Origin: Aliamphritea spongicola
GTDB taxonomy: Bacteria > Pseudomonadota > Gammaproteobacteria > Pseudomonadales > Balneatricaceae
Assembly: GCA_024347235.1 (NCBI GenBank)
Contig: AP025283.1
Coordinates: forward strand, 868,001 to 932,000
Direction: 5' to 3'
DNA: 64,000 nt
The notes under the pieces are model-generated. The model had not been told where the DNA came from. It saw nothing but the letters and a program-made list of their open reading frames with translations, and searched no databases. Numbering within the stretch: position 1 is the first letter of the stretch; the number at the start of each line of letters is the position of its first letter. This document shows positions 31,094-51,823 of the stretch, piece after piece. The position numbers and the translations under genes are program-made.

Positions 31094-32026
31094 TTACATG
31101 CGTTCCAGCATGTCCGGCTGGCTGCTGGTGGCCAGTTTTTCAGCCAGCCATTGCTGTAACAGTTCGGCATTATGGCTGATAATTCTGGAAGGTTCGCAAA
31201 GCAAAACATAACCGTAGCCGTTAAGGCCATGATCAAAAGGGCTGACCAGTAAGCCGTTATCCAGCTCGTTACGCATTAACGCATCTGCGAGCATCCAGCC
31301 CTGGCCATCGATGGCTGCCTGCACCCTTACGTTGGCGTCACTCAGTGTTCGGCGGGGATTGGGCAGGTTGTCCTCCTGCCCGTCAAACCATTCCGTCCAG
31401 AAGTCCTGAGCCCGGTCTTCACATAATAAAGTGATATCGCACCATGGTGGCTGCAGCATGGCTTCGCGTGGCAGTTTTACCTGAGCGTTATAACCAAGTT
31501 TCTCCAGCAGTCCCGGACTGCAAACCGGGAACATGGGCATCGTTGCCTGCATGATCCGGTCAGGGGATGAGCTCTGTTTTGACGGACTCCAGCGTAGCGC
31601 CATATCGACATCAGGAAGTTTGAAGTCTGCTGAGTTAACCGTGTGCTGCAGTACGATGGAGACATTCGGATAGCGTTCATTAAAGCCAGCGATGTTAGCC
31701 GATAGCCAGCGCACCGCAACGTAAGTGGTGACCGCCACAGTGACCTGGCTGTTGTGGTCGGTTTTCAGTGCCTCAAAGCTTTGGCGCAACTCAGTAAAGA
31801 CCTGCTGGGTGCTTTTTAACAGGCTCTGTCCTGCTTCAGTCAGGTAGACCTGACGGGTTGCCCGGCGAAACAGCGCACAATTGAGATGATCCTCAAGCTT
31901 TCTTATCTGATAGCTGACGGCGCCTTTCGTGAGGCAAAGTTCGTCAGCAGCCAGACTGAAGCTCAGGTGCCGGGCGGCAGCTTCAAATACTTTCAGTGAA
32001 TCCAGTGCAGGCAGGTCATGTTTCAT
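31094..32026 (-). CDS. LysR-type regulator, GcvA-like
   Basis: Intact, 310 residues. The N-terminal winged helix is FEAAARHLSFSLAADELCLTKGAVSYQIRKLEDHL (key part AADELCLTKGAVSYQIRKLE), followed by an effector-binding domain with the typical CSPGLLEK, WTEWFDGQ and DANVRVQAAIDGQGWML motifs of the GcvA/AmpR group. It diverges from the dimethylglycine-dehydrogenase-like gene, which it probably controls together with mttB. Confidence 0.92.
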   Translation of the reverse strand: MKHDLPALDSLKVFEAAARHLSFSLAADELCLTKGAVSYQIRKLEDHLNCALFRRATRQVYLTEAGQSLLKSTQQVFTELRQSFEALKTDHNSQVTVAVTTYVAVRWLSANIAGFNERYPNVSIVLQHTVNSADFKLPDVDMALRWSPSKQSSSPDRIMQATMPMFPVCSPGLLEKLGYNAQVKLPREAMLQPPWCDITLLCEDRAQDFWTEWFDGQEDNLPNPRRTLSDANVRVQAAIDGQGWMLADALMRNELDNGLLVSPFDHGLNGYGYVLLCEPSRIISHNAELLQQWLAEKLATSSQPDMLERM

Positions 32027-32067
32027 AAAAGCTCTGTGCTAACAGTTTAATTTGATTGAACCATATA

Positions 32068-32096
32068 ACAAATTTTTCGGTTTGTCAGTGATCACT
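32068..32096. promoter_or_regulatory. Candidate LysR binding region between lysR and the DMGDH-like gene
   Basis: ACAAA-N8-TTTGT (32068-32085) is followed immediately by the perfect palindrome AGTGATCACT (32087-32096). Both lie in the 176-base divergent interval. The 10-base string TTCGGTTTGT (32076-32085) recurs exactly before the second catabolic block, at 39826-39835. Confidence 0.4.
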
Positions 32097-32202
32097 TTCT
32101 TGGGGAATATCAGGGAAGAAACATAACCGCACAAACTGTCTGCCGGGTGGGCTAAAACTCAGCGTCCCGGCAGACTTGCTAAGAATAAGAAGGATTTGTT
32201 GC

Positions 32203-34626
32203 ATGAGTGAACCTATTAAAAGCCACGCTAAAGTAGTCGTCATAGGTGGTGGTATTGCCGGCTGTTCAACCCTGTATCACCTGACACAGGAAGGCTGGAC
32301 CGATGTCGTCCTGGTGGAACGTGATGAACTGACATCCGGTTCTACCTGGCATGCGGCTGCACAGGTTACCCAGTTTGGCGGAAACCAGACTATGGTCGCC
32401 CTGAAGCGCCACAGTATTAATCTGTATCGTGAGCTGGCTGCTGATCCGGAAAACCCGATCTCCTATCATATTACCGGCGGCATGCGCACCGCTTACACTC
32501 AGCAGCATATCGATACCTATAAGCACTATGTGGGCATGGCGAAAAGCATGGGTGTTGAGATGGAATTTATTGACGGTGCTGAAGCCGGTCGTCGCCATCC
32601 GCTGATTAATACGGATGGCTTGCTGGGGCCTGGTGGGATCCGCTTGATGGCGATATCGATCCGGCGGGCCTGACCTTGCGCTGGCCCGCAAAGCCCGTGA
32701 AGCCGGTGCCAAGGTATACCGTTTTAATCCTGTGGAAAACATCACCCGTAAGCCCAATGGCGAATTCATCGTTCATACCGCTAAGGGTGACATCACCTGT
32801 GAAATGGTGGTGAACGCCACCGGTTACCGGGTGAACGAAGTGGGCCGGATGCTGGGGGTTGAGCATCCGGTAACATCTATGGAACACATGTATTTCCTCA
32901 CCGACACCATTGCAGAACTGGAGGCGATGGATAAGCGGGTACCGATTATCCGTGACCCGGGTGATGATTTTTATTCCCGTCAGGAAAAGAACGGCCTGCT
33001 GGTAGGGGTTTATGAGCAGGGTTGTAAGACCTTCGGAATGCACGGCATTGATCCGCACTTTACCCAGGCACTCTGCCCGTCAGATCTGGACCGCTGTCTG
33101 GACAATATGGAACGCATTTTTGAACGGATGCCATGCCTGACTGAAACCGGTATCCATACGGTAGTGAACGGCCCGATTACTTACACCATTGACGGTATGC
33201 CCCTCATCGGGCCGGTACCGGGTGTGCCGAATGCATTCTGTGCGATCGGTTTGCGGGCCGGCATCGGTGAAGGCGGTGGCCACGGTAAGATTCTGGCGGA
33301 ACTGATGGTACACGGTGAAAGTGAATGGGATGCCTGGTGTCTGGACCCCCGCCGCTTTACCCAGTACGCCAATACGGAACATACCTGCCTGAAAGCCATT
33401 GAGGACTATCAGAACGAATTCCATTATCACCAGCCCCATGAGCACCGGCCGGCGGCACGTCTGGCCCGGACAACGCCACTGTATCCGGTACTGGATGCCA
33501 AAGATGCTGCCTGGGGTGTCGTGAATGGTTGGGAGCGGGCACTGTTCTTTAAACCGGATGCTGATTTTGTAGACGAGCACGGTTACCGGTTTACGCCGAC
33601 GAAAAATATCGTCGCGCAGGAAATTGCCAATATTCAGCAGAATGTCGGCCTGATGGAGGTTTCCGGTTTTAACCGTTATGAGATTAAAGGTGAAGGCGCA
33701 ACGGCATTCCTGGACCGTATGGTGTGCGGCAATCTGCCGAAAAAGTCGGCAAGGTGGGCCTGTGTTATCTGCTTAATGAAAAAGGCCATGTGCTGGCAGA
33801 AGCCACCATTGCTAAGTTGGGTGAGGAGCATTACTGGTATGGCTCGGCCGCCGCAGCAGAATGGCATGACCGTGACTGGTTGATTGCTTATAAGCCGGAT
33901 ACTGTCAGCCTCACTGAAATGACCGCCAGCCATACCATTCTGGTGGTGGCCGGGCCGAAATCCCGTGAGCTGCTTCAGTCTTTGTCGCCCCGCTGTGACT
34001 GGTCGAAAGAAGCCATGCCATGGATGAGCGTTCAGGAGAAAACTCTGGGACATGCAAAAATGATCGCCATGAGTGTGAGTTTCTCCGGTGAACTGGCCTA
34101 TGAACTGCATATTCCGAATGAACAGCTGTACCTGACCTGGAAGCAGATTACTGAAGCCGGTGAGTCATTCGGGCTTGGGCTGTTCGGCCTCTACGCCACT
34201 GAATCAATGCGGTTGGAAAAAGGCTATCGTCACTGGAAGGCCGATCTGATCTATGAGCGTAACCCGCTGGAATCCTGTCTGGACCGGTTTGTAAATCTGG
34301 AGAAGCCTGACTTTGTAGGCAAAGGCGCATTACTGGAAGAGCAGGCCAGAGGCCCGCAGAAACTGTTTGTCAGCTTAGAAGTTGACTGCGATTTTGCACC
34401 GGCCCATTCCGGCGACTCTATCTATAGTGGTGATGCTTTGATCGGATCAGTGACATCCGGTGGCTATGGTCATCGTGTCGAAAAGAATCTCGCCTATGCC
34501 TTTATAGATCCGGAATTTGCAGCCGTAGGTACAGAGCTGAGTATTGACCTGCTGGGTGAGATGCATCCGGTTAAGGTAATAGAACCTGCGCAGTATGACC
34601 CGGAAAACGCCTTGGTACGGGGGTAA
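32203..34626 (+). CDS. Dimethylglycine/sarcosine dehydrogenase-family flavoprotein with folate-binding domain (frameshifted)
   Basis: N-terminal FAD fold (VVVIGGGIAGCSTLYHL) with STWHAAAQV, where the His matches the covalent FAD-linking position of mammalian dimethylglycine dehydrogenase; the middle has VNGPITYTIDGMPLIGP. The C-terminal half is a GcvT-like folate domain (AGPKSRELLQSL, SFSGELAYELHIP, ESMRLEKGYRHWKAD). This predicts oxidative N-demethylation with the one-carbon unit passed to tetrahydrofolate. Start ATG follows AAGAAGGA. Three base losses are inferred, near 32626-32629, 32673 and the A-run 33741-33745. Corrected length is about 809 residues. Only 5 bases separate it from mttB. 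The substrate could be dimethylglycine, sarcosine or another N-methyl amine. Confidence 0.9.
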
Positions 34627-34631
34627 ACAAC

Positions 34632-36183
34632 ATGACTGAAGAATCAACCAAAGCCAGACGCCGGGGCCGGGGCGGGCCCCGTGCCCGGGACATCATGCGG
34701 GCAAAACGCAGTGCGCCTCCTGCGGTGAATCCGTGCCCGCCGGGGCCGGTGGGAGGGCAGTATAAACCGTTAACTGACGACCAGATTGAAACCATTTATC
34801 ACAGTGCACTGAGGATTCTGGAAGAGATCGGCATGGGGAAGCCCCCAGGTACTGATCGACCAGGCCTGTAGCAAAGGAGCTTTTGTGAATGATGACGGGC
34901 GGCTGTGTTTTCCTCAGAGTATGGTGGAAGAACAGATTGCCGGGGCCTGTAAAAGTTTCACCTACTATGGGCGCAACCCGAAACATGACTTCACGGTCGG
35001 TGGTGACAGTGTGTACTTCGGAACCGGCGGTGCCGCAGTACAGACACTGGATATCGACAGCGGAGAATACCGTCCTTCTACTCTGAATGATCTGTATGAC
35101 TTTACCCGGTTGATGGATACCCTGAATAACGTCAGTTGGTTTACCCGCTGCTGTGTGGCAACGGACGTACCGGATAACTACGATCTGGATGTGAATACGG
35201 CTTATACGTTACTGGTGGGCACAGAGAAGCCAGTGGGTACCAGCTTCACGCTGGCAGAACATGTTGATCCGATCATCGACATGTTTGATATGGCACTGGG
35301 CGGGGAAGGGAAATTCCGTGAACGACCGTTCTGCAAAGCGCATATCAGCCCGGTTATTTCTCCCCTGCGATACGGGGAAGATGCGGTGGATGTCGCACTG
35401 GCCTGTATGCGCAGAGGCGTACCGATAAATAACATCGTGGCGGCACAGTCCGGGGCAACTTCTCCGGCTACTCTGGCGGGTATGCTCAGTTCAACGCTGG
35501 CGGAAACGCTGGCAGCACTGATCATGGTGAATGTGTTTGAGCCGGGTTACCCGATGATTTTCTCGAACTGGCCATTAGTGATTGACCTGCGTACCGGGTC
35601 GTTCTGTGGCGGCGGTGGAGAAATAACCCTGCTGAATGCAGCCTCGGCGCAGCTTTCCAATTATCTGGGGCTGCCCTCCGGTGCTGCTTCCAGTATGAGT
35701 GATGCCAAGGCGGTAGATGCTCAGATGGGGCTGGAAAAGGCGCTGTCGGCGGTGTCAGTAGGGCTGTCCGGTTGCAACATGGTCTATGAATCCGCGGGGA
35801 TGACCGCCAGTTTGCTGGGGGCGTCATTCGAATCTTTCCTGATCGATGACGAGATGATCTCCCACGTATACCGGGTGTTGCGCGGCGTGGAAGTTACCGA
35901 GGAAACTTTGGGGTTTGAAGCGATCCGGGAAGCGGTCAGTGGTGAAGGGCATTTCCTTGGCGGTGAGCACACGCTGGCGGCCATGCAGCGGGATTACTTT
36001 TATCCCAGTGATTTGTCCGACCGGCAGGAGCCGCGTACCTGGCAGGAAACCGGCGGGCAGGATATGTGGCAACGGGCCAATCTGAAAGCGAAGCAGATTT
36101 TAGCGGAGCACCGGCCTAATTATCTGGATCCGGCAACGGATGCTGCTATCAGGGCTAAGTACAATATTCAGCTGACCTTTTAA
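34632..36183 (+). CDS. Trimethylamine methyltransferase (MttB) family protein, non-pyrrolysine (frameshifted)
   Basis: COG5598-type methyltransferase expected to move a methyl group from a quaternary or tertiary amine to a corrinoid protein. A basic N-terminus (ARRRGRGGPRARDIMRAKR) precedes the TIM-barrel family sequence (ALRILEEIGMGEAPQVLID after repair; FGTGGAAVQTLDIDSGEYRP; SAQLSNYLGLPSGAASSMSD). No in-frame amber codon remains once two single-base losses near 34838-34851 are repaired, so it belongs to the pyrrolysine-free branch, of which glycine-betaine methyltransferase MtgB is the studied example. Corrected length is about 517 residues. I see no corrinoid protein gene in the window. 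Confidence 0.9.
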
Positions 36184-36268: not shown

Positions 36269-36291
36269 CAGGCGATGCCAGTTAAGAGGGA

Positions 36292-39086: not shown

Positions 39087-39113
39087 ATATCTGTCAGACA
39101 TATCCGGGCGCTT

Positions 39114-39514: not shown

Positions 39515-39874
39515 GGCTTTTTCCTCATTGACGATTATTGATGGCCGTAACCACCGTGTTTCTGATGAGTTAATGATGATCCCGCTGATGCGGACTAACC
39601 ATGATCAGATATGCGAAATCCTTGACCGATCATTCTTTTGACGCGCTTCCGGCAGTTTTCCCCAGACATATTTTGTTATCAGACATGCTGTCGCATGTGT
39701 CTTTTCTGAGTGAGTAGTCTGTTCGCTCCTGAACTTTCCCTGTGGATATTTCATGTTAACAAGGATTGACAGCTCCGGTCTCTTAATGACAATATCCAAA
39801 ATATATTAAAAATATATTTATATTATTCGGTTTGTGTTCGAGTGATATTTTTAAATTATGTGAAAGGGTCCGTC
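39515..39874. promoter_or_regulatory. 360-base intergenic region with AT-rich palindrome
   Basis: Contains no convincing gene. It holds the divergent control signals of the MAPEG gene and the FAD oxidoreductase. An AT-only inverted repeat (arms AAATATATT and AATATATTT, 3-base centre, 39799-39819) lies 55 bases before the oxidoreductase start, followed by TTCGGTTTGT (39826-39835), the same 10-mer seen before the DMGDH-like gene. Confidence 0.5.
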
Positions 39875-41195
39875 ATGACATACCGCAATAATCTGCCGGC
39901 TGATTATAAAAACCAGCTCCCTTGCTTTGGCACGTTCGACATCATCGTTGTAGGTGGTGGCCCTGCAGGCATTGCCGCCGCTGTCAGTGCCAGCGAGCTG
40001 GGCAACAAGGTACTGCTGATTGAACAGCTGGGCTTTCTGGGCGGAGCGGCCGTATCCGGTATGTCCGGTACCATCTGTGGCCTGTATATGACGGTTGCTG
40101 ATCCGCTGGTGGCTAAACCTGAACAGATTATCTTCGGCTTTGCCGAGCGTTTCCGTGATGCTCTCTATCAGGCCGGCGGTTTAACCGACCCGCAGATTTA
40201 CGGTAAGACCTGGGTCGCTACCCATGACTGCGCGACTTACAAGCGAGTCGCCACGGATATGACCCGGCAGGCAGGCGTGACCGTGCTGTACCACACCCAG
40301 ATGGTCGATGTGATTACTGAGGATGACGCTTTCAAAGGCATGGTGCTGCATACCAAGTCCGGCTTTACCCGGGTGAATGCGAAGAAAGCCATTGATGCCA
40401 GTGGCGATGCCGACGTGGTTTACAAAATGGGCCTGAAAACCAGCAAGGGGAACGACGGTGTTATCCAGAACCCGACTATGATGTTCAAAGTGGGCAATGT
40501 GGATATGCAGCAGTATCTGTCGTACTGGGGGCAGGACACTATTTCACCGCCGAAGGTTGTCAGCATGCTGGAAGCCGAAGACGAACTGCTGCGCAAAAAG
40601 TCTGGCTGTTCCCAACGGTGAACCCGGGTGAGCTGTTGGTGAATGCCACCAAGGTAACCGGTTTTGACGGCCGTGCGCTGGATGTGACCAATCCTGTGGA
40701 TCACTCTGAAGCAGAGCAATTCTCCATCTATCAGGCGCAGAACTTCTTTAAGTTTATGCGGGATAACATTCCCGGTTGTGAAAATGCCTATTTCATCGAT
40801 TACGCCACGGAAGTGGGCGTACGGCAGACCCGTTCCATCGACGGTATTGCCAAACTGATGAACGACGATGTTATTAACAAGCGTAAGCGTGAAGACAGCA
40901 TCGCCAAAACCTCCTGGCCAATCGAGCTGCACTACGGTGCCAAGCCAAAAACAGAATGGCTGGTGGATGATTACTACGATGTCCTTTCCACACCCTGGTA
41001 CCGAAAAGTGGCCAGGATGTGATCGTTGCCGGGCGTTGCCTGAGCAGTGAACACGAAGCACTGGCCAGCTGCCGGGTGACAGCGCAGTGCTTCGAGTACG
41101 GACGGGCTGCAGCCTTTGCTGCAGACCTTTCCATTAAGGAAGATCTGGCTTTCCAGGAAATGGAAGCCGCCCAAATTGTTGCACTCATGCAGTAA
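39875..41195 (+). CDS. FAD-dependent oxidoreductase (FAD_oxidored family, frameshifted)
   Basis: About 440 residues. Start ATG at 39875 (MTYRNNLPADYKNQLP) preceded by GAAAGGG. Rossmann motif DIIVVGGGPAGIAAAVSASELG, key part VVGGGPAGIAAAV, with LIEQLGFLGGAAVSGM directly after; KKAIDASGDADVVYKMG is the family's second FAD motif. One A lost near 40596-40600 (LRKKVWLFPTVNPGE after repair) and one C near 40984 (DVPFHTLVPKSGQDVIVAGRC after repair). The substrate is not known; its position before a BCCT transporter suggests oxidation of an imported betaine or a derived hydroxy or amino acid. Confidence 0.85.
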
Positions 41196-41204
41196 TTCTT
41201 TACC

Positions 41205-41263
41205 CCGCAAGGCTTCGGCAGGCTGTGCCATCCGGTTTGGATGGTATGGCTGCTTGCGGTTTT
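41205..41263 (+). terminator. Long stem-loop with T-run between FAD oxidoreductase and BCCT genes
   Basis: Outer stem CCGCAAG / CTTGCGG (41205-41211, 41253-41259) encloses an inner stem CCATCC / GGATGG (41228-41233, 41239-41244) and is followed by TTTT. It could be a partial terminator or an attenuator that lowers transporter expression relative to the enzyme. Confidence 0.5.
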
Positions 41264-41286
41264 AAAACCCTAACAGGACAAAAATA

Positions 41287-42795
41287 ATGAAGACTGTTGA
41301 AACCAACCGGCAGATGCAAATTGTCAGTCTGGCGGTGATCCTTCTGGCGGCATTACCTCTGGTCATGTATCCGGATGCATCAAAAACGGTGATCAAAGAC
41401 ACCATTTTCAAGTGGATGACCAACTCGTTTGATTTCGCTTTTCTGGCGATCGGGCTGGCAGCACTGATGTTTCTTGTCACACTGGCATTCTCAAGCTATG
41501 GCAGCATTAAGCTGAGTAAAGATAAAGACCAGCCGGCTGAATTCTCCAAAGGCTCCTGGGCAACCATGGTATTCCTGGCGGGGATCGCCTCCGGTCTGAT
41601 GTTGTGGGCCGGTACCGAATGGGGTTACCACTATGCCTGGACACCGTTCGGTCTGGAAGCCAAGACAGAACAGATGTTCACCGTGGGGCAGGCCTATGGT
41701 CTGTTCCACTGGGGCCCAACAGCCTGGGCGCTGTACTGCGTGCCAACCATTGCGATTGCTTACGTGTATTACATCCGTCAGGTGCACACCTACGGCATCA
41801 GCGAAGCTTGCCGTGGCGCGCTGGGTGGTCTGGTTGACGGCCCGCTGGGTACCTTACTGAACTACCTGTTTATTTTTGGTGTACTGGGTGCCGCAGCCAC
41901 TTCGCTGGGGCTGGGTACGCCGATGATCAGTGGTGCGTTTGCTGAAGTATTTGGCTTCGAGCGCAGCACCTATCTGGATGTCAGCATCATTCTTGCCTGT
42001 ACGGCTATCTTCACCGTATCCAGTGGTTTAGGTCTGGATAAAGGGATTAAAAACCTGTCTAACTTTGCAACCACCATTTCCATTGCGGTTGTGATCTACG
42101 TGTTTGTTGTCGGTCCGTCTAACTTCATTCTGGGTCTGGGTATGGACTCAATCGGCTATGCGGTCAGCAACTACATTAAGATGAGTACCTGGACTGACAG
42201 CATTTCCGGCAGCGGCTTCCCGCAGGCCTGGACCGTTTTCTACTGGGCATGGTGGGTTTCCTATGCACCGTTCATGGGGATGTTCGTTGCCCGTATTTCC
42301 CGTGGTCGCACTATCCGTGAAGTAATTCTGGGCATGCTGACCTGGGGTACCCTGGGCTGTGCCATCTTCTACATCGTACTGGGCGGTTACAGCATCGACC
42401 TGCAGGTTAACGGCGGCGTTGATTTCCAGGCGATTGTGAACAGCTCCGGCCCTGCGGTAGCGATCATAGAACTGTTCAAGACCTTACCTATGGCCAGCAT
42501 GGTGCTGATTGCTGTGGGTATCTCCGGCATCGTGATGCTGGCAACCACCTTTGACTCTGCGGCCTACACCATGGCCTGTGCGAGCACCAAAGAACTGGAT
42601 GAAGGCCAGGAGCCGGCGCGTAATAACCGCCTGTTCTGGTGTTTCGCCATTGCAGTAATGCCGGTCATTCTGCTGTTCCTGGGCGGTCTGAAGACCATGC
42701 AGACAGCAGCCGTCATTACTGGTCTGCCTATCATGTTTATTCTAATCTTTATGATGTACACCACCTGGAAGTACATCCGTGAGGACAATCCATAA
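41287..42795 (+). CDS. BCCT family betaine/carnitine/choline transporter
   Basis: Intact, 502 residues, twelve predicted transmembrane helices. The BCCT signature is WTVFYWAWWVSYAPFMGMFVARISRGRTI, key part FYWAWWVSYAPFMGMFVARI, where the tryptophan box builds the cation-pi substrate site. The helix-3 region GIASGLMLWAGTEWGYHY lacks the GxGxG of sodium-driven BetP and is more like CaiT-type members, by recollection, so antiport is conceivable. It lacks a long C-terminal osmosensing tail (ends TTWKYIREDNP), which favours a catabolic rather than osmotic role. The stop overlaps the next start by one base. Confidence 0.93.
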   Translation: MKTVETNRQMQIVSLAVILLAALPLVMYPDASKTVIKDTIFKWMTNSFDFAFLAIGLAALMFLVTLAFSSYGSIKLSKDKDQPAEFSKGSWATMVFLAGIASGLMLWAGTEWGYHYAWTPFGLEAKTEQMFTVGQAYGLFHWGPTAWALYCVPTIAIAYVYYIRQVHTYGISEACRGALGGLVDGPLGTLLNYLFIFGVLGAAATSLGLGTPMISGAFAEVFGFERSTYLDVSIILACTAIFTVSSGLGLDKGIKNLSNFATTISIAVVIYVFVVGPSNFILGLGMDSIGYAVSNYIKMSTWTDSISGSGFPQAWTVFYWAWWVSYAPFMGMFVARISRGRTIREVILGMLTWGTLGCAIFYIVLGGYSIDLQVNGGVDFQAIVNSSGPAVAIIELFKTLPMASMVLIAVGISGIVMLATTFDSAAYTMACASTKELDEGQEPARNNRLFWCFAIAVMPVILLFLGGLKTMQTAAVITGLPIMFILIFMMYTTWKYIREDNP

Positions 42796-43918
42796 TGAAC
42801 CAACCGGTTGTCGAGTCAATTGACATCTATGGTATCGGTCCCGACGGTGAGAAGGTCTCCTGGTCTTCTTTCCTGGGGCCCATGTACGAGGCGATGATTG
42901 TCGTCGAGTTGACCTTTGATAACGGTCTGGTCGGCATTGCCGGCTCGACCGTCTATACCGAACACGAATTTGACCGCAGCGTGGTCGAAAGTGCCTCGCT
43001 GATGGCGCCTTTCCTGCTGGGTAAAGGCCTGTTCGATATACCGAAGATCTATGCCGAATGTATGTCCCGGTATGTGCCACTGAAGAATGTCGCCACCTCG
43101 CTGTTCGATATCGCCATGCACGATGCCAAGGGCAAACTGCTGAACCTGCCGATCTATAAAATGCTCGGTCAGGCGCAGCCGAAAGTCCGGCATATGCTTC
43201 CAGCCCGCTGCTGGAAGATAATCAGCAATACATTGAGTACTGTCACCAGATGCTGGCACAAGGTTTTAATGCCATTAAAATCCATCCGCGCTGTGTCTTT
43301 CAGGAAGACTACGCACTGGTGAAAGCGCTGCAGGCTGAATTTGCTGATCAGGACATTGGCTGGAGTCTGGATGTTGATGCCAACTACAACCGGCAGCAGG
43401 CGCTGCGTATGGGGCGCCTGCTGGATAAATACGAGTGGGACTTCTTTGAAGAACCCTTAAGCGATACCGACTTTGAAGGTTATCGCTACCTTTCAGAAAA
43501 TCTGGATATCGACATTGTGGCCGGCGGTAACGCGGTGCCTAACCTGCAGCTGATTAATCAGGCACTGCAGCGCGGCAGCTGGGACCGGGTGCGCTTTGAC
43601 TTTACCACCATTGGCGGTTTTACCAACGGTAGCCGGGTAATGGCGCTGAGTCAGGCCTACGGGTTGAAAGCCGAAGTGCAGTCATGGGGCTACACCCTGA
43701 CGCAGGCGGCTAACCTGCACATGATGTTATCCAACTCTAACTGTGAATACTTTGAACAGGCCGCGCCGTATGAAAAATACGAAGTGGGTGCCAAACAGGT
43801 TTTCCGGCCGGACAGTGACGGCTATATCAGCCCGACTGAACTGCCGGGACTCGGCGTTGAGCTGGACTGGGATGTACTGGATCCGCTGGTGTATTTCCAC
43901 CGGCGCTTTAGCCGTTAG
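42795..43918 (+). CDS. Enolase-superfamily enzyme 1 (mandelate racemase/muconate lactonizing type, frameshifted)
   Basis: About 374 residues. N-terminal capping domain, then barrel motifs NAIKIHPRC (catalytic Lys), SLDVDANYN (first metal Asp), WDFFEEPLS (second ligand Glu). The third ligand position reads VAGGNAVPN, so the usual Glu/Asp of GGE seems replaced by Asn; the later segment is AEVQSWGYTLTQAANLHM. One G lost near 43187-43190 (VRAYASSPLLEDNQQYIEY after repair). Start codon overlaps the BCCT stop (TAATG), so uptake and this enzyme are coupled. Likely dehydrates, epimerises or racemises the imported acid; exact reaction unknown. Confidence 0.85.
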
Positions 43919-43954
43919 CAGGGCCGCCACTTAGCGACTCCGTTGTAAGAACAG

Positions 43955-43986
43955 AAAACCCGGTTGCCGTGCAGGCACCGGGTTTT
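43955..43986 (+). terminator. Terminator-like hairpin after enolase 1
   Basis: AAAACCCGGT and ACCGGGTTTT pair over 10 bases with a 12-base GC-rich loop, ending in TTTT. It lies just before the enolase 2 start, so it may be partial or the second gene may have its own promoter. Confidence 0.75.
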
Positions 43987-44002
43987 ATGCGTGTGTTAGA
44001 AA

Positions 44003-45144
44003 ATGTCTGTCAGAATTGAAAATATTCAGGTGCTTTGTCTGCAGGACCCGCAGGCAGACTATGTGCGCTTTGAAGGCAGTTACCAGAATGTGCTGGTAAT
44101 TGTTCACGGGGATAACGGCCTGTATGGCATCGGCGAGAGTGACTCTCCGCCGGCGGTCATCAAGGCACTGATTGATGCCCCCGCCTATAACCATTTGTCC
44201 TGCGGGCTGGCCGGATTACTTAAAGGTGAATATCTGGATGATCCGGTGCGTTTGTGGCACAAGATGTTTAAACATACCAGCTGGCACGGCCGGCATGGGG
44301 TGGCGATTCATGCGATCAGCGCGCTGGATATTGCCCTGTGGGATCTCTATGCCCGCTCCGAAGGCAAGCCGTTACTGAAATATTTCGGCCCACAGCAACA
44401 CCGACGGTTACCGGCTTATGCCACGGTGTATCCCATGAAGGAACAACCGGAAAGTTTCAAAATCCAGATCGGCGAGTTCCTCAGTCAGGGCTTCCGGCGA
44501 ATTAAAATCTGTGTGGAACCCTGGTGGCATGACTTTGATCTGGCCTGCAGTAATCTGGAAGAACTGCGGGCCTTTATCGGCCCGGACATTGAACTGATGC
44601 TGGATGTGGCGCTGGAGTTCCAGCATTACGCCCAGCTGGAACCCTTTGTTGACCTGCTGGAAGCGCTGGATATCAAATGGCTGGAAGCGCCGTTTCCACT
44701 GGATAACCCGGGGACCACCAACGTCTGAAACAGAGAACCCATTTGCCGCTGGGGTGGGAGATCTGGGGCTGACCACCGTGCGGGAATATCAGCCCTGGCT
44801 GGATGCCGGGGTAGTGGATATTGCTCAGCCGGATATCACCATGTTCGGCGGTGTCAGTGAAGTGATGAAGTTACAGAACACCCTGGCGGATACCGACAGC
44901 CGGATCATTCCCCATGGCTATAACACGGATATCACCATTGCCGTAAACGCCCATTTTCTTGCTGCGCAAACAATCTGTGAACCACTTGAGTATTCCACCA
45001 GCCCGTCGGAATTGCGCCGGCAGCTGGCGCTGAACCCTCATCAGCTGGACGATGACGGCATGATTGCTGTGCGTTCAGAATTACCGGGGCTGGGGTAGAC
45101 CTGAACTGGGAGTTGGTCAGGAATGTGCGCTGCCGGGGCAGTGA
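44003..45144 (+). CDS. Enolase-superfamily enzyme 2 (acid-sugar dehydratase/racemase type, frameshifted)
   Basis: Different from enzyme 1: barrel motifs are FRRIKICVEPWW (Lys), LMLDVALEF (metal Asp), KWLEAPFPLDN (metal Glu), PLGVGDLGLTT (third ligand Asp instead of Glu), VDIAQPDITMFGG and the catalytic His of IIPHGYNTDI. One G lost near 44710-44713 and one near 44752-44755. The 3' end is also damaged (G-run near 45095 and possibly near 45112); the best corrected ending is VDLNWELGQECALPGQ with a stop at 45142-45144, which would put the stop inside the hairpin that follows. Corrected length is about 381 residues. Confidence 0.8.
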
Positions 45145-45184
45145 GCCCCGGAAGTATCAGGGGACCAGTCCTGCCACGGCAGGA
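45133..45184. terminator. Double hairpin between convergent enolase 2 and lysR genes
   Basis: CCGGGGC / GCCCCGG (45133-45151) and TCCTGCC / GGCAGGA (45169-45184), the second followed by TTATT. Located exactly between the ends of two convergent genes. Confidence 0.6.
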
Positions 45185-46067
45185 TTATTCTGCGTCAGGG
45201 AAGAAGGCTTTCACCCAGTTGCAGAAGGTCCGGCCGCTGGCATTGCGTTCGTTGTCCGCCGGGCTGAGCAGGTAGTAGTTTTCTTCCATGGGCATGTTGA
45301 TGTCGAAAGGCTTGACCAGTTCGCCACTGGCCAGTAAATCCGCACAGACCAGCGGATGGCCCAGGGCGATACCCAGCCCCGCCGGGCCATATCCATGGAG
45401 ACCACAAAGGTAGAGGTGGAGTGTACCGGCTGGCTGCCCTGTGCTTCGCAATCGGCATAGCTGAGCCAGTTTTCCCAGCGGTCTGCGGACCCCTGAGTCT
45501 CCCAGCGGTTGAAATTGAAGATATCAGCAGGGGAGTTGAGCTGAGCAGCAATTTCCGGCGTACACACCGGGAAACAGGTCTGGCGGGGAAAGGGGTATAA
45601 GTCATCCACCTGCCAGTCCCCTTTACCGAAACGTATTTCCACGTGGTCTTCCTCGCCCAGCCCGTATTCCCGTTGCCAGATCATGGTGGTCAGGCTGGTC
45701 TGAATATCTGGGTAACGCTGGTAGAAGTCCGGTAAACGGGGGCAAGCCAGAAGGTGATAAAGGCAATATTCGCCCGCACGGTAATGGCCTGCTGGTGGTC
45801 CTTGCCGGTAAACAGTTCGGTGCCCTGACGCAGGGTTTCGAATGCCTGCTGCACCCAGGGCAGGTACAGACGTCCCGCTTCACTCAGCTCCAGGCTGCGT
45901 ACCCGGCGGATGAACAGGGATTCCCCCAGATGGTTTTCCAGCAGCTTTACCTGCTGGCTGACCGACGACTGGGTGACATGCAGTTCGCTGGCGGCCTGGG
46001 TAAAACTCAGGTGCCGGGCGGCCGCTTCAAAGGAACGCAACCATTGCACCGGGGGCAGTTTATTCAC
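45185..46067 (-). CDS. LysR-type regulator, GcvA-like (frameshifted)
   Basis: About 295 residues after repair. The helix-turn-helix region is FEAAARHLSFTQAASELHVTQSSVSQQVKLLE, key part AASELHVTQSSVSQQVKLLE. The effector domain continues LAPRLPDFYQRYPDIQTSL after a repair near 45736-45741, and RRGLGIALGHPLVCADLLAS after another near 45378-45385. It is paralogous to the LysR at 31-32 kb. It diverges from the desaturase-like oxygenase gene across a 150-base interval with a perfect palindrome, so it probably controls the mocDEF-like genes and perhaps the enolase genes. Confidence 0.88.
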
Positions 46068-46106
46068 AGCAATTTCCTGATATTTGTTGTTATTTTTGTA
46101 ATGGCC

Positions 46107-46122
46107 AACTTATGCATAAGTT
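46107..46122. promoter_or_regulatory. 16-base perfect palindrome, candidate LysR operator
   Basis: AACTTATGCATAAGTT reads the same on both strands. It is 40 bases from the lysR start and 96 bases before the oxygenase start, a position suited to a LysR recognition site that serves both genes. Confidence 0.6.
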
Positions 46123-46217
46123 TGAGTAATGTGATAACAGTAAAATCATCGTTTGTCACTTTTCAGCGGCTGTTTTCTACTGAACTCAGAAAAACAATAA
46201 CGTGATGAAGAGTTCCT

Positions 46218-47231
46218 ATGACTGACTATCAAGCCACCAATGCTGCTTCTTCCGGCATTAGCGTCCCCAAGAAAAATCTCAAAGCGCTGATGCGCCGCAG
46301 CGACAAACCGGGCCTGATCTGGCTGGCCCAGTGGGTAGCATTTCTGCTGATCACCGGTTACGGCGTATACCTGAGTATTGGCACTGTCTGGCACTGGCCG
46401 GCCATGTTCCTGTACGGCATCTTCCTGACGGTGCCCAGCTATGCGTTATCCCACGAATGTGCCCACGGCTCCGCTTTTCGTACCCGTGGCCTGAATGAAG
46501 CCCTGCTGTGGATTTCTTCACTGCTGTATTACGAAGAGCCAAATCATCGTCGTTTTGCCCATGCCCGGCACCACACCTACACCTGGATTGAAGGCAAAGA
46601 TGCTCAGATGCCATTTGCTACGCCGATGAATTTCAAAGGCTGGCTGCTGGAGATCACCGGCTGGGCTTTGTATGTCTACGAAACCCGCCTGTTCGTTCGC
46701 AATGCTTTGGGCAAGTTTGATGCTGAGGTGCTGGATTACACCCCGGCCTCTGAGCTGGGTAAGCTGAAGTGGGGCGCACGTATCTGCCTGGCGGTCTATG
46801 CCAGCCTGTTTGGCATGGCGCTGGCCGGCATCATGTGGCCACTGTGGTTCATCATCATCCCACGTTTGCTGGGGGCGCCGGTGATGCTGCTGTTCACCCT
46901 GATCCAGCACGTGGAAATGCAGGAAAACGATGTGGATATCTGCAAGTCCACCCGCTCGTTTACCAGTAACTGGCTGGGTCGTTTCCTGTACATGAATATG
47001 AACTTCCACATTGAACATCACCTGTATCCGATGGTGCCGTTTCATCAGTTGGAAAACCTCAATGCCGAGATTAAAGACCAGATTCCACAACCGGACCCGG
47101 GCTTTATCCGCACTAATCTGGAAGTGCTGCAGGTGGTCTGGCGCCGTTCCATGGGCGGTTCGACCCGGGCGGCGAGTATCCGTCAGGCACCGCACATGAT
47201 CAATACACCGGACCTGCAGGAAATGTCCTGA
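46218..47231 (+). CDS. Membrane di-iron oxygenase/desaturase, MocD-like
   Basis: Intact, 337 residues. The eight-histidine di-iron motif is present: HECAH (79-83), HARHHT (115-119) and HIEHH near residue 260, with hydrophobic segments at about 35-75 and 190-230. It belongs to the fatty-acid-desaturase/hydroxylase fold, but the small size and the downstream Rieske ferredoxin plus reductase match the rhizopine catabolic protein MocD, where the oxygenase is thought to remove an O-methyl group. Fatty-acid desaturation is less likely in this context. Probable role: hydroxylation or oxidative demethylation of a small zwitterionic substrate. Confidence 0.85.
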   Translation: MTDYQATNAASSGISVPKKNLKALMRRSDKPGLIWLAQWVAFLLITGYGVYLSIGTVWHWPAMFLYGIFLTVPSYALSHECAHGSAFRTRGLNEALLWISSLLYYEEPNHRRFAHARHHTYTWIEGKDAQMPFATPMNFKGWLLEITGWALYVYETRLFVRNALGKFDAEVLDYTPASELGKLKWGARICLAVYASLFGMALAGIMWPLWFIIIPRLLGAPVMLLFTLIQHVEMQENDVDICKSTRSFTSNWLGRFLYMNMNFHIEHHLYPMVPFHQLENLNAEIKDQIPQPDPGFIRTNLEVLQVVWRRSMGGSTRAASIRQAPHMINTPDLQEMS

Positions 47232-47297
47232 CGTCTCACCGGAACAACATAACAACCATAAGAACATCAATAAGAGCGATGCTGTGAGGAATAAATT

Positions 47298-47608
47298 ATG
47301 ACTGACTGGGTGCTGGCCTGTGCCACTGATGATATCGACGAAGAGGATCTGATCCGTTTCGATCACGAAGACAAAACCTATGCTATCTACAATACCGATA
47401 ACGGCTTTTTGCCACCGCCGGTTACTGCACCCATGAAGTGCAGCATCTGGAAGACGGACTGGTGATCGGCAATGTCATTGAATGTCCGCTGCATCAGGGA
47501 CGGTTTGAAATATCCTCCGGTAAGGCGCTGAGTGCCCCGGTGTGTGAGGACCTGGTGACCTATCCGGTGAAAGTGGAAGGTGATCAGATTTACATTCAGA
47601 TCGTCTGA
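47298..47608 (+). CDS. Rieske-type ferredoxin, MocE-like (frameshifted)
   Basis: About 104 residues. Starts MTDWVLACATDDIDEEDL. Adding one T in the run near 47405-47409 gives GFFATAGYCTHEVQHLEDG and IECPLHQGRFEISSG, so both Rieske ligand pairs (CTH and CPLH) are present. Without the repair no ferredoxin is visible, so the gene is easily missed. Expected to carry electrons from the downstream reductase to the di-iron oxygenase. Confidence 0.9.
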
Positions 47609-47619
47609 GAGGTTTCTGC

Positions 47620-48881
47620 ATGACTGAACTGAAAGTTGGCACCCTGATTATCGGGGCCGGGCAGGCGGGGGCCAGCGCGGCGTTTGCCCTGCGGGAAAAA
47701 GGCTACAGTGACCCGGTGTGCATCATCGGTGAAGAAGCCCTGCCGCCCTATGAACGGCCACCGTTATCCAAAGCTGTATTGCGCGACGAGAAAAACCTCG
47801 CCGACATTCTGGTGCGGGATTTACCTGCCTACGATACCCACAATATTCAGTTGATGCTGGGGAGCCGGGCAGAGCAGATTCTGCCACAGGAACAGCGGGT
47901 AAAACTGGGTGACGGTCAGGTAATCCACTATGACCACCTGATACTGGCCACCGGTGGCCGTCCCCGTCAGCTACCGGGTAAAGCCTTGCCCGGTGTGCAC
48001 TACCTGCGCAGCCACGGTGACGGTACCCGGCTGGCTGCCGAACTGAAACAGTATAGAAAACTGGCGGTGATCGGCGGTGGTTTTATTGGCCTGGAAGTAG
48101 CGGCCAGCGCCCGGCAAATGGGGCTGGAAGTCTGCGTGATAGAAGCAGCACCGCGGGTGTTGCAGCGCAGCCTGCCGGAAACCATTGCTGCCGACGTAGT
48201 CGCCCTGCATGAAGACCAGGGGTGGAGTTTCACTGTAACGCCCGCCTGGAGGGCTTTGTCGGCACGGACCGTCTGAGCGGCATTCAGCTGGAAGACCAAC
48301 TGATTGACGTGGACATTGCGGTTGTCGGCATTGGCCTGATTCCCAACACCGAACTGGCGGAAGCGGCCGGGCTGGCGGTGGATAACGGCATCTGCACCGA
48401 TGCGCATTGCCGCACCGGCAATGCGCATATTTACGCCATCGGTGACTGTGCCAACAGCTATCACGGCCATTATCAGCGGGCGGTTCGCCTTGAGTCCTGG
48501 CAGAACGCCAATCTGCAGGGGGCTATTGCTGCCGCTGCTATTTGTGCTGATGCCTGTGCTGATGCCTGTTCTGAGATACAGGCGGTTAAAAACGACGCAG
48601 TCCCCTGGCTCTGGTCAGATCAGTACGACTGGTCATTTCAGGTGGCAGGTATGTTCGACAGTCAGGCACAGCTGATCAGCCGGGGATCGGCAGCTGAAGG
48701 CAAGGTGATTTACTTTATCCACAGTGACGGCGTTCTGACCGGCGTGGTGGGCTGGGGCAAAGGCACATCCGTTGCCAAAGATGTCCGCGTTGGCCAGATG
48801 TTACTCCAGCAGGGTAAGAATCCACCCTTTGAAATGCTGGCGGATGACAGTATCTCCCTGAAAAAATTGCTGAAACTCTGA
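47620..48881 (+). CDS. Ferredoxin reductase, MocF-like (frameshifted)
   Basis: FAD/NAD(P)H-dependent reductase of the BphA4/rubredoxin-reductase type, about 420 residues. FAD motif TLIIGAGQAGASAAFALRE, redox-loop motif PPYERPPLSK, NAD motif LAVIGGGFIGLEVAASAR, second FAD motif IYAIGDCAN, and a C-terminal reductase domain. A G is missing near 48218-48221 (EDQGVEFHCNARL after repair). Eleven bases after the Rieske gene. Completes a three-component oxygenase with the two preceding genes. Confidence 0.92.
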
Positions 48882-48950
48882 CGGGCATCGTTATTGCCTT
48901 ATCAGGCGCGCCCGCAGAACCATAACAAAAACAATTAAGAGTCAAAAATA

Positions 48951-50248
48951 ATGAACCGAGCATCTGATTACGAAACCGGCATTGCCGCCAACCCCAGCCA
49001 ATGACACTGGAGGAAGCGGCCTGGATTACCCCGCCGACACAGCTGACAGATACCGAAGCGATGCTGGATATGCCACGGCTGCGCCGTTACCGCCAGGAAC
49101 GTCTGCGTGAACAAATCAAACTGCACAATCTGGGCGGTGTACTGTTGACTGATCCGCTGTCGATCCGTTATGCCACCGGGGTGCGTAATTGTGCCCTGTT
49201 TCAGACCCATATCCATGCCGGCTATCTGTTTGTACCGGCGGAAGGGCCGGTGGTGTATTTCGATTCATCCCCGGGCCGCTATACCGGCAGTCAGCTGGAA
49301 ACCATTGATGTGATCCGTGATGACCTGTTACCGGTCAGCTATATGTTTGCCGGCAGCCGACATGAAGAATGGTGCCGTAAATGGGCCCTGCAGATTAAAG
49401 AGCTGATGGACCAGTACGGTGGCGGTAACCCGCGTATTGGTCTGGAAAAGGCTGGCACGGAAGGCACCATTGCCTTTCAGAGTGTCGGGCTGGAGGTGCT
49501 GGATGCCGGTGCGCCGCTGGCCATGGCGCGGAAGATCAAAAGCGCCGAAGAGATCCTCTGCATGAACCAGACCATCGCCGTGGCGGAAGACGGCATGACC
49601 CGCATGCGTAATGCGCTGGTCAATGGCATCACTGAAGTGCAGTTGTGGTCGCATATGTGGCAGGCGAACATTGAAGGGGGCGGTGAATGGATTGAATACC
49701 GCCTGCTGGCCTCCGGTGAACGTACCAACCCCTGGCAGCAGGAAGCCGGTTCGCGGATGATCCGCGCCGGTGATCTGGTGTGTTTCGACTGCGGCATGAT
49801 CGGCCCGTTTGGCTACGGTGCTGATATATCCCGGGCGTTCCACTGCGGGCCGGGCAAGCCCACTGATCATCAGCGCATGCTCTATACCCAGGCATGGGAA
49901 GAGATTCAGCACAACACTGAACTGATGCAGCCGGGGGCGGACTTCAACGACATTATCGCCAACCGCTATATTCAGCCGGAAGCCATTGGTCAGCAGACCT
50001 ATCCGGCCCTGTGCCATGGTCTGGGCATGGGGGATGAGTGGCCGGTGGTCTACTACCCGGCGGATGAGCAATTTCATTTCGACGGCCAGCTTGAAGCCGG
50101 CATGGTGATCTGCGTGGAAAGCTACGTCGGTGAAATCGGCGGCAACGAAGGCATCAAACTGGAAAATCAGGTGCTGGTGACCGAATCCGGCCCGATCACC
50201 CTGTCCCGCTATCCGTTTGAAGACGGCCTGCTGAACCGCGAATTCTGA
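48951..50248 (+). CDS. M24-fold metalloenzyme similar to DMSP lyase DddP (frameshifted at start)
   Basis: About 433 residues. The start ATG at 48951 joins the main frame after adding one C near 49004-49007 (GIAANPQPMTLEEAAW). From memory it follows DddP closely: GGVLLTDPLSIRYATG, GGEWIEYRLLASGERTNPW, HGLGMGDEWPVVYYP and GIKLENQVLVTESG. The metal set of the M24 fold appears as Asp in CFDCGM, Asp in YGADISRAF, His of CHGLGMG, Glu of CVESYVGE and Glu of KLENQ. DddP has an extra Asp (DxD) in the first of these; here the motif is DCG. It may therefore be a DMSP lyase variant or a related C-N or C-S bond-cleaving hydrolase (creatinase and ectoine hydrolase share the fold). Confidence 0.82.
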
Positions 50249-50267
50249 ACCCGCTGAGGATGTTGTA

Positions 50268-51088
50268 ATGAAAAAGATTTATACCTACGGCGGCGAATTC
50301 GGTCTGCGTAACTGGACCGCCGCCGATCTGACTGCTCACAAGGGAGGCGCGAAGCTGACACAGGTGACCGCTGTGAATGCTGAAGAAGCGGCCGCCGCTG
50401 AAGCCGCCGGCATCGATATGATCAGCATTATTGCTGATGACCTGGCAGTGACCCGTGCCGCTGCACCGCACACCTTTATTACCGCGGCGCTGCAACTGAC
50501 GGATTACTATCAGGAAGAAGCAGTGATTAACGGTGCTTTTAAGGCAATGGAAGGGGGCGGATGCGGTTTATACCATCCGTAATCTGGAGATGGTCAGTAA
50601 ACTTGCCAGCTTCGATATGCCGGTAATGGGTCATGCGGGGCTGATTCCCCGTAAATCCACTTGGATCGGTGGCCTGCGCGCCTTTGGCCGCACTGCGGAA
50701 GAAGCCATGGAGTTGTATCGGCAGTTTAAACGGCTGGAAGACGCCGGAGCCTGGGCAGTCGAGGTAGAAGTAGTACCGACAGAAGTACTGGCGGCCATCA
50801 ACATGAAAACCAAGCTGGTGACCACCTCTATCGGGGCCGGCTCCGGCGGGATGTGATGTTCCTGTTTACCGATGACATCGTCGGTGAAACGGAAAATCCG
50901 CCACGGCATGTACGTAGTTACCGTAACTTCTTTGAGATCCGCGAACAGATGCGCCGTGAACGGATTGCCGCCCTGAAGGAATTCCGGGCGGATGTGGAAG
51001 AAGGGGCATTCCGGGGATTGCCGAATCCGTGGAGATGAATGCCGTTGAACTGGATAAGTTCCTTGAGGAACTGGATAAACAGCCCTAA
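50268..51088 (+). CDS. PanB-like protein (ketopantoate hydroxymethyltransferase / PEP mutase superfamily, frameshifted)
   Basis: About 274 residues. After repair of G-runs near 50553-50557 and 50848-50851 and a C near 51010 it reads EGGADAVYTIRNLEMVSKLA, PVMGHAGLIPRKSTWIGGLR, AGRTEEEA-like FGRTAEEAMELYRQFKRLE, GAWAVEVEVVPTEVLAAI, SIGAGSGGDVMFLFTDDIVG. These are the PanB barrel signatures. The usual PanB start and KMLTAYD-type motif are weak (KLTQVTAVNAEEAAAAEAAG, with SIIADDLAV). Placed after an M24 enzyme and before a catabolic GntR regulator, it is more likely an aldolase or hydroxymethyl-removing enzyme of this pathway than the pantothenate enzyme. Confidence 0.82.
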
Positions 51089-51100
51089 CCGGCTGTTTTT
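51077..51100 (+). terminator. Rho-independent terminator after the PanB-like gene
   Basis: AAACAGCC and GGCTGTTT pair over a 6-base loop and are followed by TT. It spans the stop codon of the PanB-like gene. Confidence 0.85.
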
Positions 51101-51130
51101 CCACAGGCATTAAAATGGCCACCGACTGGG

Positions 51131-51823
51131 ATGAAACCGCTGGGTATTATGTCGATTTCCGATATAATCCCAGCATGCAAACATCTCTGGAAAAAGACCA
51201 AGGCGGAACTTGCCGCTGAACTGCTGGAAGCAGCCATTATCAGCTGTGATCTGGAACCGGGTTCTGTGATGACAGAAACTGAGGTCAGCGAATACCTGGA
51301 CCTGGGGCGAACCCCGGTCCGCGAAGCACTGACCCGGCTGGCCAATGAAAATCTGGTACGCCTCTCCCGTGCCGGCGTCGTTATTCCTGAACTTAACCCC
51401 ATGACCATGCTGAAGCTGCTGGAACCCCGCAGCATGATGGAACGGCTGTGCATCGAAAAAGCCATCGAGCGTATGGTGGATGAAGACCGCGCCCGAATTA
51501 CACCGGTGATTGATGCCCTGCAGGCGCTGGATAACGGTGACCGCAAAGGCTTTATGGCCCAGTTGCGGGAAATCCATAATATTCTGGCGGACTCTTCCAA
51601 GAACGAATTTATCCTCGACTCAATCAAGTCGACCCAGGGCTTGTCCCGGCGTTTTTGGTATTACTATGCCACCGATGAGGATCAGGCCTACTGTACTGAT
51701 CTCTATGTACGTCAGTTGCAGGCTCTGCTCAGTGGCGACGAAACCACTTCAATGGCCTGCTCGGCCGAGCTGATGCAGTATTTGCAGAACTTCGCCCGCC
51801 AGCAGCTGGAACAGTTTCGCTGA
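51131..51823 (+). CDS. GntR-type transcriptional regulator (FCD group)
   Basis: Winged-helix N-domain (KAELAAELLEAAIISCDLEPGS, key motif LDLGRTPVREALTRLANENLVR) and an all-helical ligand domain (LEPRSMMERLCIEKAIERM, LREIHNILADSSKN, LYVRQLQALLSGD). Typical of regulators of acid catabolism operons. The start is uncertain: the open frame begins at 51131, but ATG at 51175 (MQTSLEK, then KTKAELAAELLEAA) would fit the family better if two bases are missing from the A-run near 51189-51193. Separated from the PanB-like gene by a terminator. Confidence 0.87.
   Translation: MKPLGIMSISDIIPACKHLWKKTKAELAAELLEAAIISCDLEPGSVMTETEVSEYLDLGRTPVREALTRLANENLVRLSRAGVVIPELNPMTMLKLLEPRSMMERLCIEKAIERMVDEDRARITPVIDALQALDNGDRKGFMAQLREIHNILADSSKNEFILDSIKSTQGLSRRFWYYYATDEDQAYCTDLYVRQLQALLSGDETTSMACSAELMQYLQNFARQQLEQFR

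Follow-up and report, generated by a model that had tools for sequence, protein, structure and literature searches.

The window analysed here is a stretch of 64,000 nucleotides from the genome of Aliamphritea spongicola (contig AP025283.1, positions 868,001 to 932,000). Its functional unit is a 12-kb inserted island at 39.8-51.8 kb, in which the genes of a Moc-type oxygenase (MocD, MocE and MocF) adjoin those of an M24-family protein and of a protein resembling PanB (ketopantoate hydroxymethyltransferase). We found that the PanB-like protein belongs to a family separate from E. coli PanB, and that this family is strongly linked to oxygenases of several kinds. The novelty of the island rests on the PanB-like family and its tie to oxygenases of kinds able to demethylate, more than on the list of genes.

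The PanB-like family

Proteins of the window were scanned with Pfam and NCBIfam models, and so were the intact copies in G236, a genome of the same genus. The G236 copy of the PanB-like protein belongs to the Pfam family of PanB (Pantoate_transf, 125.5 bits versus a gathering score of 28.7), but it stays below the cut-off of the PanB equivalog TIGR00222 (90.5 versus 207.55 bits). A genome-wide scan yielded at least 66 PanB-like loci. When these were aligned to E. coli PanB, Asp84 was found to be changed in 65 of the 66, and Lys112 and Glu114 each in at least 65; all three are changed in the G236 copy as well. We take these positions, among others, to be catalytic or metal-binding residues of PanB, a metal ligand and the lysine included. 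His136 and Glu181 were retained in all 66 loci and a second Glu (column 179) in 65 of them; the loop after Asp45 was missing in the four PanB-like rows printed. In a 68-row tree built from the 66 loci, the G236 protein and E. coli PanB, a branch with 100/100 support set 65 loci and the G236 protein apart from E. coli PanB and a Blastococcus locus (L133), with a warning from the tree program that long branches meet at this split.

From the equivalog score, the changed active-site residues and the supported branch, a true PanB can be rejected, and the idea of a PanB in the normal sense was not borne out; a canonical panB is present elsewhere in the genome. Public plasmid records label the family 3-methyl-2-oxobutanoate hydroxymethyltransferase, a label which our analysis corrects. 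No description of the family or of its tie to oxygenases was found in the parts of the open-licence literature consulted.

Linkage to oxygenases

In the first set, comprising the 66 loci, we scored MocD, sterol-desaturase-type, PhyH and cytochrome P450 (P450) oxygenases within about 5.5 kb, and 38 loci had at least one of them. The gene-order pictures of these loci rest on a simple picker of open reading frames (ORFs) and some genes in them are misplaced. Neighbouring proteins were then compared for 31 loci, dereplicated at 75% identity. Of 136 proteins within 2 kb, 133 were kept after removal of an exceptionally long ORF and of two additional PanB-like copies; the controls were 133 proteins from farther than 5 kb, out of 226 that were eligible. 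The neighbours included 12 FA_desaturase, 8 Rieske (mostly MocE-type ferredoxins), 6 PhyH and 4 FA_hydroxylase proteins, the six PhyH proteins coming, as far as checked, from L092 and L099. For the controls, 25 of 127 families were listed. FA_desaturase, FA_hydroxylase and PhyH did not appear in that list and can therefore have no more than one control member each; Rieske had two. One control protein (L105:3725-4816) actually belongs to a MocD cluster. Further neighbours of PanB-like genes were a P450 with a 2Fe-2S ferredoxin, a Rieske oxygenase and a TauD-type protein.

The second set was drawn from 295 genomes of one family, in which PanB-like proteins (E 1e-60 or better, best locus per genome) were present in 65. 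With oxygenase profiles built from the first set, 55 of these 65 loci had an oxygenase within 5 kb and 51 within 2 kb (MocD in 45 loci, sterol-desaturase-type in 12, Rieske in 5). No oxygenase match was found in any of 40 control windows of 12.8 kb. These came from the same contigs, at a distance of about 50 kb, in the 40 of the 65 genomes whose contigs measured about 98 kb or more. When seven loci coinciding with the first set (the named alphaproteobacterial, mostly Rhodobacterales, loci) were left aside, 48 of 58 had an oxygenase, a result whose significance is inflated by kinship among the genomes. As for the ten misses, three had a match just past 5 kb, four had a MocE ferredoxin but no MocD, and three had nothing.

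Seen from the side of the oxygenase, PanB-like genes lay within 1 kb of 6 of 8 full-length MocD genes of the window type (at least 55% identity) in the second-set genomes, or of 6 of 10 if the partial matches in G810 and G663, for which no PanB-like protein was listed, are included. A MocD homologue was present in 59 of the 65 genomes with the PanB-like protein versus 78 of the 230 others, where kinship again inflates significance and the counts 59, 6 and 78 were tallied by hand from match lists. Many genomes thus have MocD without the PanB-like protein, yet most PanB-like loci in that family of genomes have an oxygenase.

The tree requires 13 label changes for five oxygenase labels, and partners change or co-occur within supported clades. 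For example, the sterol-desaturase-type loci L126 and L127 nest among MocD-type loci, and MocD occurs together with a sterol-desaturase-type gene in L070 and L178. This is what would be expected if the family were linked to a common reaction and not to one protein partner.

Two groups of loci can be added for the record. In the alphaproteobacterial loci L092, L094, L095, L087 and L099, two tandem PanB-like genes stand among genes of PhyH-family dioxygenases. The actinobacterial, mostly Actinomarina-group loci without a scored oxygenase are L079, L083, L085, L086, L088-L091, L093, L098 and L134.

Possible reactions of the PanB-like proteins

We consider it possible, though far from assured, that the PanB-like proteins form a widespread, undescribed one-carbon family: a PanB-fold barrel without the ketoacid active site, which would take a hydroxymethyl or formaldehyde unit from oxidative demethylases that span at least four mechanistic classes (membrane di-iron, iron/2-oxoglutarate, P450 and Rieske) and pass it, probably, to tetrahydrofolate before free formaldehyde escapes. 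Condensation of formaldehyde with 3-methyl-2-oxobutanoate is described for some PanB variants in PMC7073904, and a one-carbon role is thus plausible on chemical grounds.

Several observations weigh against this proposal. PMC7073904 also reports that the growth phenotype of an E. coli formaldehyde test strain did not change when panB was removed together with ltaE, and according to PMC10033563, the dehydrogenase conserved beside the P450 demethylase of porphyran degraders is not a formaldehyde detoxifier. In our data, 28 of the 66 first-set loci were scored as having none of the four oxygenase families within about 5.5 kb, 11 actinobacterial (Actinomarina-group) and 6 verrucomicrobial loci among them, although some contigs are short and L096 was scored in this way despite a P450-cluster gene 3.5 kb away. 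LacI and sugar-type genes accompany many MocD-PanB pairs, whose service must therefore extend beyond betaines. Finally, folate use cannot be assumed, since the metal ligand and lysine of PanB are lost.

The loss of these positions also argues for new chemistry, the PanB superfamily includes enzymes acting on C-C bonds, and some of the same loci (L074, L178 and L202) contain a class II aldolase. The PanB-like protein might therefore act on the leftover carbon skeleton, as a retro-aldol enzyme, hydratase or lyase of the isocitrate-lyase/PanB superfamily, with the oxygenases being hydroxylases whose product it cleaves. We hold this to be rather unlikely. The same family occurs with differing oxygenases, in sugar-type as well as betaine-type gene sets, and a common small product, as in the one-carbon proposal, is the simpler shared denominator.

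Extent and composition of the island

An earlier note on this DNA had joined the genes between 31 and 52 kb into one 21-kb catabolic unit. Comparison of 17 genomes of the genus, the window's own included, did not support this. The stretch consists of a separate block 1 (28.0-36.2 kb) and the island (39.8-51.8 kb), and between them (36.2-39.1 kb) lie dehydrogenase-like and chemotaxis-like genes identified by eye. The island is itself composite, as block B (LysR2, MocD, MocE, MocF, M24 and PanB-like) is placed between the enolase 2 and GntR genes of what we call operon A (Table 1).

Table 1. Genes of block 1 and of the island, with positions in the window
Gene product	Position	Strand	Unit	Remarks
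Glycine-betaine-type ATP-binding cassette (ABC) importer (substrate-binding protein, permease, ATPase)	28001..31040	+	block 1	identified by eye; binding-protein gene frame-split; present in G246
LysR1 (GcvA-like)	31094..32026	-	block 1	Pfam/NCBIfam
Dimethylglycine dehydrogenase (DMGDH)-like FAD/folate oxidoreductase	32167..34626	+	block 1	DAO, FAO_M, GCV_T, GCV_T_C; three stretches in window
MttB-superfamily methyltransferase	34632..36183	+	block 1	two frames in window
FAD-dependent oxidoreductase (PF12831)	39842..41192	+	operon A	three frames in window; 79% copy in G194
BCCT transporter	41287..42795	+	operon A	71% copy in G194
Enolase-superfamily protein 1	42795..43918	+	operon A	closest solved structure 4JHM; two frames in window
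Enolase-superfamily protein 2	43964..45121	+	operon A	closest solved structure 3SJN; several stretches in window
LysR2 (GcvA-like)	45188..46067	-	block B	three frames in window; intact G236 copy scanned
MocD-like membrane di-iron oxygenase (FA_desaturase)	46218..47231	+	block B	HxxxH, HxxHH and HxxHH boxes readable
MocE-like Rieske ferredoxin	47298..47608	+	block B	two frames in window
MocF-like ferredoxin reductase	47620..48881	+	block B	two frames in window
M24 protein, DddP clade	48989..50248	+	block B	Asp297 replaced by Gly
PanB-like protein, separate family often beside oxygenases	50268..51085	+	block B	several stretches in window
GntR regulator (GntR and FCD domains)	51115..51823	+	operon A (end)	two frames near start; 71% copy ends G194 operon

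This division rests on two genomes. In G246, the ABC/LysR/DMGDH/MttB block (up to 98% identity) occurs without the island, and the island site is empty, a MAPEG-like gene standing directly next to a lipoprotein-like gene (by eye); the flanks of the empty site are about 73-82% identical to G236. In G194, the FAD oxidoreductase, BCCT, enolase 1, enolase 2 and GntR genes form an uninterrupted five-gene operon, 63-79% identical, so that operon A is complete without block B. Single genes followed the same pattern. Close copies of the DMGDH-like protein (95-100%) were present in G236, G246 and G225 and distant ones (64-65%) in G181 and G194. For enolase 1, G236 and G225 had close copies, G194 one of 71%, and G246 none above 31%. 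Close copies of MocD (96-99%) were confined to two of the 16 other genomes, G236 and G225; G246 had a relative of only 34%, and no match was found in the 13 remaining genomes, G194 among them. A single co-conserved 21-kb island is thus rejected: the list of genes as a whole is not conserved together within the genus, a result that does not extend to its sub-blocks.

The window and G236 align at 90.6% identity over 39113-51819, and the next common stretch begins only at 60756, which means that the window holds about 9 kb more at the island site. This extra stretch (51824-60700) contains, by eye, aldehyde-dehydrogenase-like and Old-Yellow-Enzyme-like genes with broken frames. Near the same site, G236 and G246 have a tripartite ATP-independent periplasmic (TRAP) transporter with an N,N-dimethylformamidase-like gene (PF20254; L059 12359-17351 and L140 10576-15568). 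Three proteins of this set in G236 had no close copy in the window by tblastn.

Operon A and block 1

The families of enzymes, transporters and regulators named in the earlier note were present, as judged from the family scans and from tblastn of G236 proteins against the window: two LysR, a protein with DAO, FAO_M and GCV_T domains, an MttB-family protein, PF12831, BCCT, two enolase-superfamily proteins, MocD-, MocE- and MocF-like proteins, M24, a PanB-family protein and GntR. The betaine-type ABC importer was identified by eye and not by family scan.

The BCCT transporter passes the cut-off of TIGR00842 (424.9 versus 407.55 bits) and scores below those of the carnitine, glycine-betaine and choline transporter models listed. 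As for the enolases, the molecule names of their closest structures, 4JHM and 3SJN, carry no tested activity. Membership in the betaine-epimerase group of 2PMQ was considered and rejected, as 2PMQ did not appear in the 60 structures displayed for either enolase (out of 70 and 77, respectively). In other bacteria as well, a BCCT gene is accompanied by one or two enolase genes: by two, with GntR, on a plasmid of Psychrobacter urativorans, by one, with GntR and a FAD oxidoreductase (51%), in Vibrio sp. THAF190c, and by two in Pseudomonas sp. MPC6. The window's own genome also has a second BCCT-enolase-enolase-GntR set (G000:C1, about 17.1-21.8 kb, L144), with 44% identity for BCCT, 35-43% for the enolases and 31% for GntR.

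In block 1, the intact G236 copy of the DMGDH-like protein has the DMGDH-type architecture (DAO, FAO_M, GCV_T and GCV_T_C). The MttB-like protein scores below the cut-off of TIGR02369 (328.4 versus 525 bits, for a window frame without about the first 85 of 517 residues). It also appears without its usual neighbour, since no match to the corrinoid protein PF02607 was found in the window; two matches lie elsewhere in the genome. The two enzymes beside a betaine-type importer suggest use of glycine betaine or dimethylglycine. On Sinorhizobium and Shinella plasmids, M24 (more distant, 40-41%), MttB-like (30%), DMGDH-like (35-36%) and enolase genes and a betaine importer share one locus, so the families of both blocks do meet elsewhere, in another arrangement.

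Substrate and proposed route

The oxygenase of block B is of the Moc type: MocD has three histidine boxes and is adjoined by MocE and MocF, with MocE slightly under the cut-off of TIGR02377 (128.2 versus 136.15 bits, G236 copy). Parts of the block are found together elsewhere. On two Rhodobacterales plasmids, MocD (56%), MocE and M24 (55%) are contiguous, and in L178, L202, L204 and L206, LysR2-like (39-41%), MocD (57-59%), PanB-like and MocE genes are grouped, joined in L178 and L202 by the class II aldolase. The genus has one more MocD homologue, which is distant from that of the window (identity mostly 34-43%; G000:C1 429732-430623, G236:C1 460781, G225:C1 439468, G246:C29 13823) and is frame-broken in the window's genome. 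In L204, an MttB-like gene (1505-3037, 35%) stands two genes upstream of the LysR2-MocD-PanB-MocE set.

Clues to the substrate come from two of the related loci. In L071, a close relative of block B is accompanied by a GcvA-like LysR, by a Rieske gene with weak similarity to the glycine-betaine monooxygenase GbcA (123.9 bits, cut-off 670), and by a dioxygenase gene resembling TmpA and gamma-butyrobetaine dioxygenase (280 and 272.7 bits, under both cut-offs). In L202, an enolase (255-1358) lying about 3 kb from the LysR-aldolase-MocD-PanB-MocE set (3218-7185) matches 2PMQ, which we take to be hydroxyproline-betaine epimerase, with 510 bits. Given these neighbours, the best reading, though an indirect one, is that the island substrate is a quaternary ammonium compound or another N-methylated zwitterion. 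To this extent, and considering also the recurrence of BCCT with enolases, the catabolic set for a methylated zwitterion predicted in the earlier note appears to stand. It is a point against this reading that in L204, a locus of the window type, genes for an FGGY kinase and a sugar-type binding protein lie about 2-5 kb away.

The same locus, together with the many loci in which MocDE-PanB relatives are accompanied by LacI, ABC genes and sugar-type binding proteins, raises the alternative that block B removes an O-methyl group from a compound resembling a sugar or inositol, as has been proposed for rhizopine MocDEF. Its place beside the BCCT-enolase operon would then be a coincidence of insertion, and operon A is indeed found without it. 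In view of the betaine-related neighbours in L071 and the 2PMQ-like enolase in L202, we regard this alternative as unlikely.

For the N-methylated zwitterion, we tentatively propose the following route, which we would call a fair guess short of probable, as we infer the substrate, the order of steps and every catalytic activity from sequence. BCCT would import the zwitterion, and the two enolase-superfamily enzymes would act on the carbon beside its carboxylate, by isomerisation or elimination. MocDEF would hydroxylate a methyl group, which would leave as a one-carbon unit, and this unit, either formaldehyde or a hydroxymethyl intermediate, would be taken over by the PanB-like enzyme, with tetrahydrofolate as the most likely acceptor. 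A C-N bond would be cleaved by the M24 enzyme, which is related to DddP but has a changed metal site, and the FAD enzyme would oxidise a product.

Frame breaks in the window

Twenty G236 proteins were mapped onto the window by tblastn. Close copies were found for 17. In 11 of them, the coding sequence is distributed over more than one frame: the ABC binding protein, the DMGDH-like and MttB-like proteins, the FAD oxidoreductase, both enolases, LysR2, MocE, MocF, the PanB-like protein and GntR. If these breaks were real, the island would be a decaying remnant in this genome. This is very unlikely, since the genome, a single 5.0-Mb contig, has a completeness of only 78.48%, its canonical panB is also frame-split, and the homologous genes in G236 are single open frames. 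The breaks are likely due to assembly error, and the assembly looks rich in indels. G225 carries the same genes with 85-97% identity to G236.

The M24 protein

The best NCBIfam match of the M24 protein is DddP, and its best-scoring solved structures are 4RZY and 4B28, which we take to be DddP structures. It retains the five residues at 295, 307, 371, 406 and 421 (4RZY numbering), presumably the metal ligands common to M24 proteins, and also Tyr366 and Asp377. At position 297, it has Gly instead of the Asp of DddP; this was seen in the alignment for the G236 and G225 copies and in the translated sequence for the window. In PMC4108388, Tyr366 and Asp377 are described as invariant in DddP lyases, and Asp297 as a DddP residue not shared with methionine aminopeptidases. 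Together with a score of half the DddP cut-off (299.5 versus 600 bits), the replacement of Asp297 led us not to call the protein DddP, and the DddP-type cleavage envisaged in the earlier note was not upheld. That the protein is nevertheless a dimethylsulfoniopropionate (DMSP) lyase, and the island one for DMSP or another sulfonium compound, is therefore rejected as highly improbable, in spite of the top-ranking DddP matches and the retained Tyr366 and Asp377.

Among 18 aligned rows, some of them near-copies, position 297 is Gly in five (the two same-genus copies, L071, L073 and L074) and Asp in 13, DddP included. Gly is also present in the M24 protein of L175. In these four loci (L071, L073 and L074 being from Rhodobacterales), the Gly-297 M24 gene (70% identity) is co-located with PanB-like and sterol-desaturase-type genes. 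In L032 and L033, where M24 accompanies MocDE and does not adjoin a PanB-like gene, position 297 is Asp. M24 relatives at E 1e-60 or better were present in 41 of 398 genomes of the phylum, the own genome included, and none above 45% identity was found in these genomes outside the own one. Close to a different DddP-like M24 gene in the window's genome, the ORFs of a series, many of them 121 residues long, share an identical or almost identical start (L145 12104-18462).

Relation to known systems

The gene set named in the earlier note was not found described as a characterised pathway in the parts of the open-licence literature consulted. The nearest system is the ferredoxin oxygenase complex of the rhizopine mocDEF genes, which are part of rhizopine catabolism according to PMC10107442. 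The island shares the MocD-MocE-MocF trio with it. Unlike the rhizopine system, the scanned island genes include no GFO/IDH/MocA oxidoreductase or sugar-binding protein, the GntR regulator is of the FCD type, and M24 and PanB-like genes adjoin the trio instead.

The pathways for hydroxyproline betaine and proline betaine, which use an enolase-superfamily epimerase, are similar in combining a betaine-type importer with enolase-superfamily genes, and the 2PMQ-like enolase near a block-B-like set in L202 points in the same direction. They differ in that the enolases of the island are closest to 4JHM and 3SJN, and in that the island has no Rieske oxygenase gene.

In the P450 demethylation of 6-O-methyl-D-galactose, an oxygenase with redox partners releases formaldehyde, as proposed here for MocDEF, but the enzyme is a P450 and not MocD, and the conserved neighbour is an alcohol dehydrogenase (PMC10033563).

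If the one-carbon proposal is true, the PanB-like protein would be a missing partner of the oxidative demethylation of betaines, methylated sugars and similar compounds, and would show how formaldehyde, the toxic product, may be contained in bacterial demethylation. Whatever the chemistry of the PanB-like protein, its linkage to oxygenases is strong enough for the question to be tested directly.

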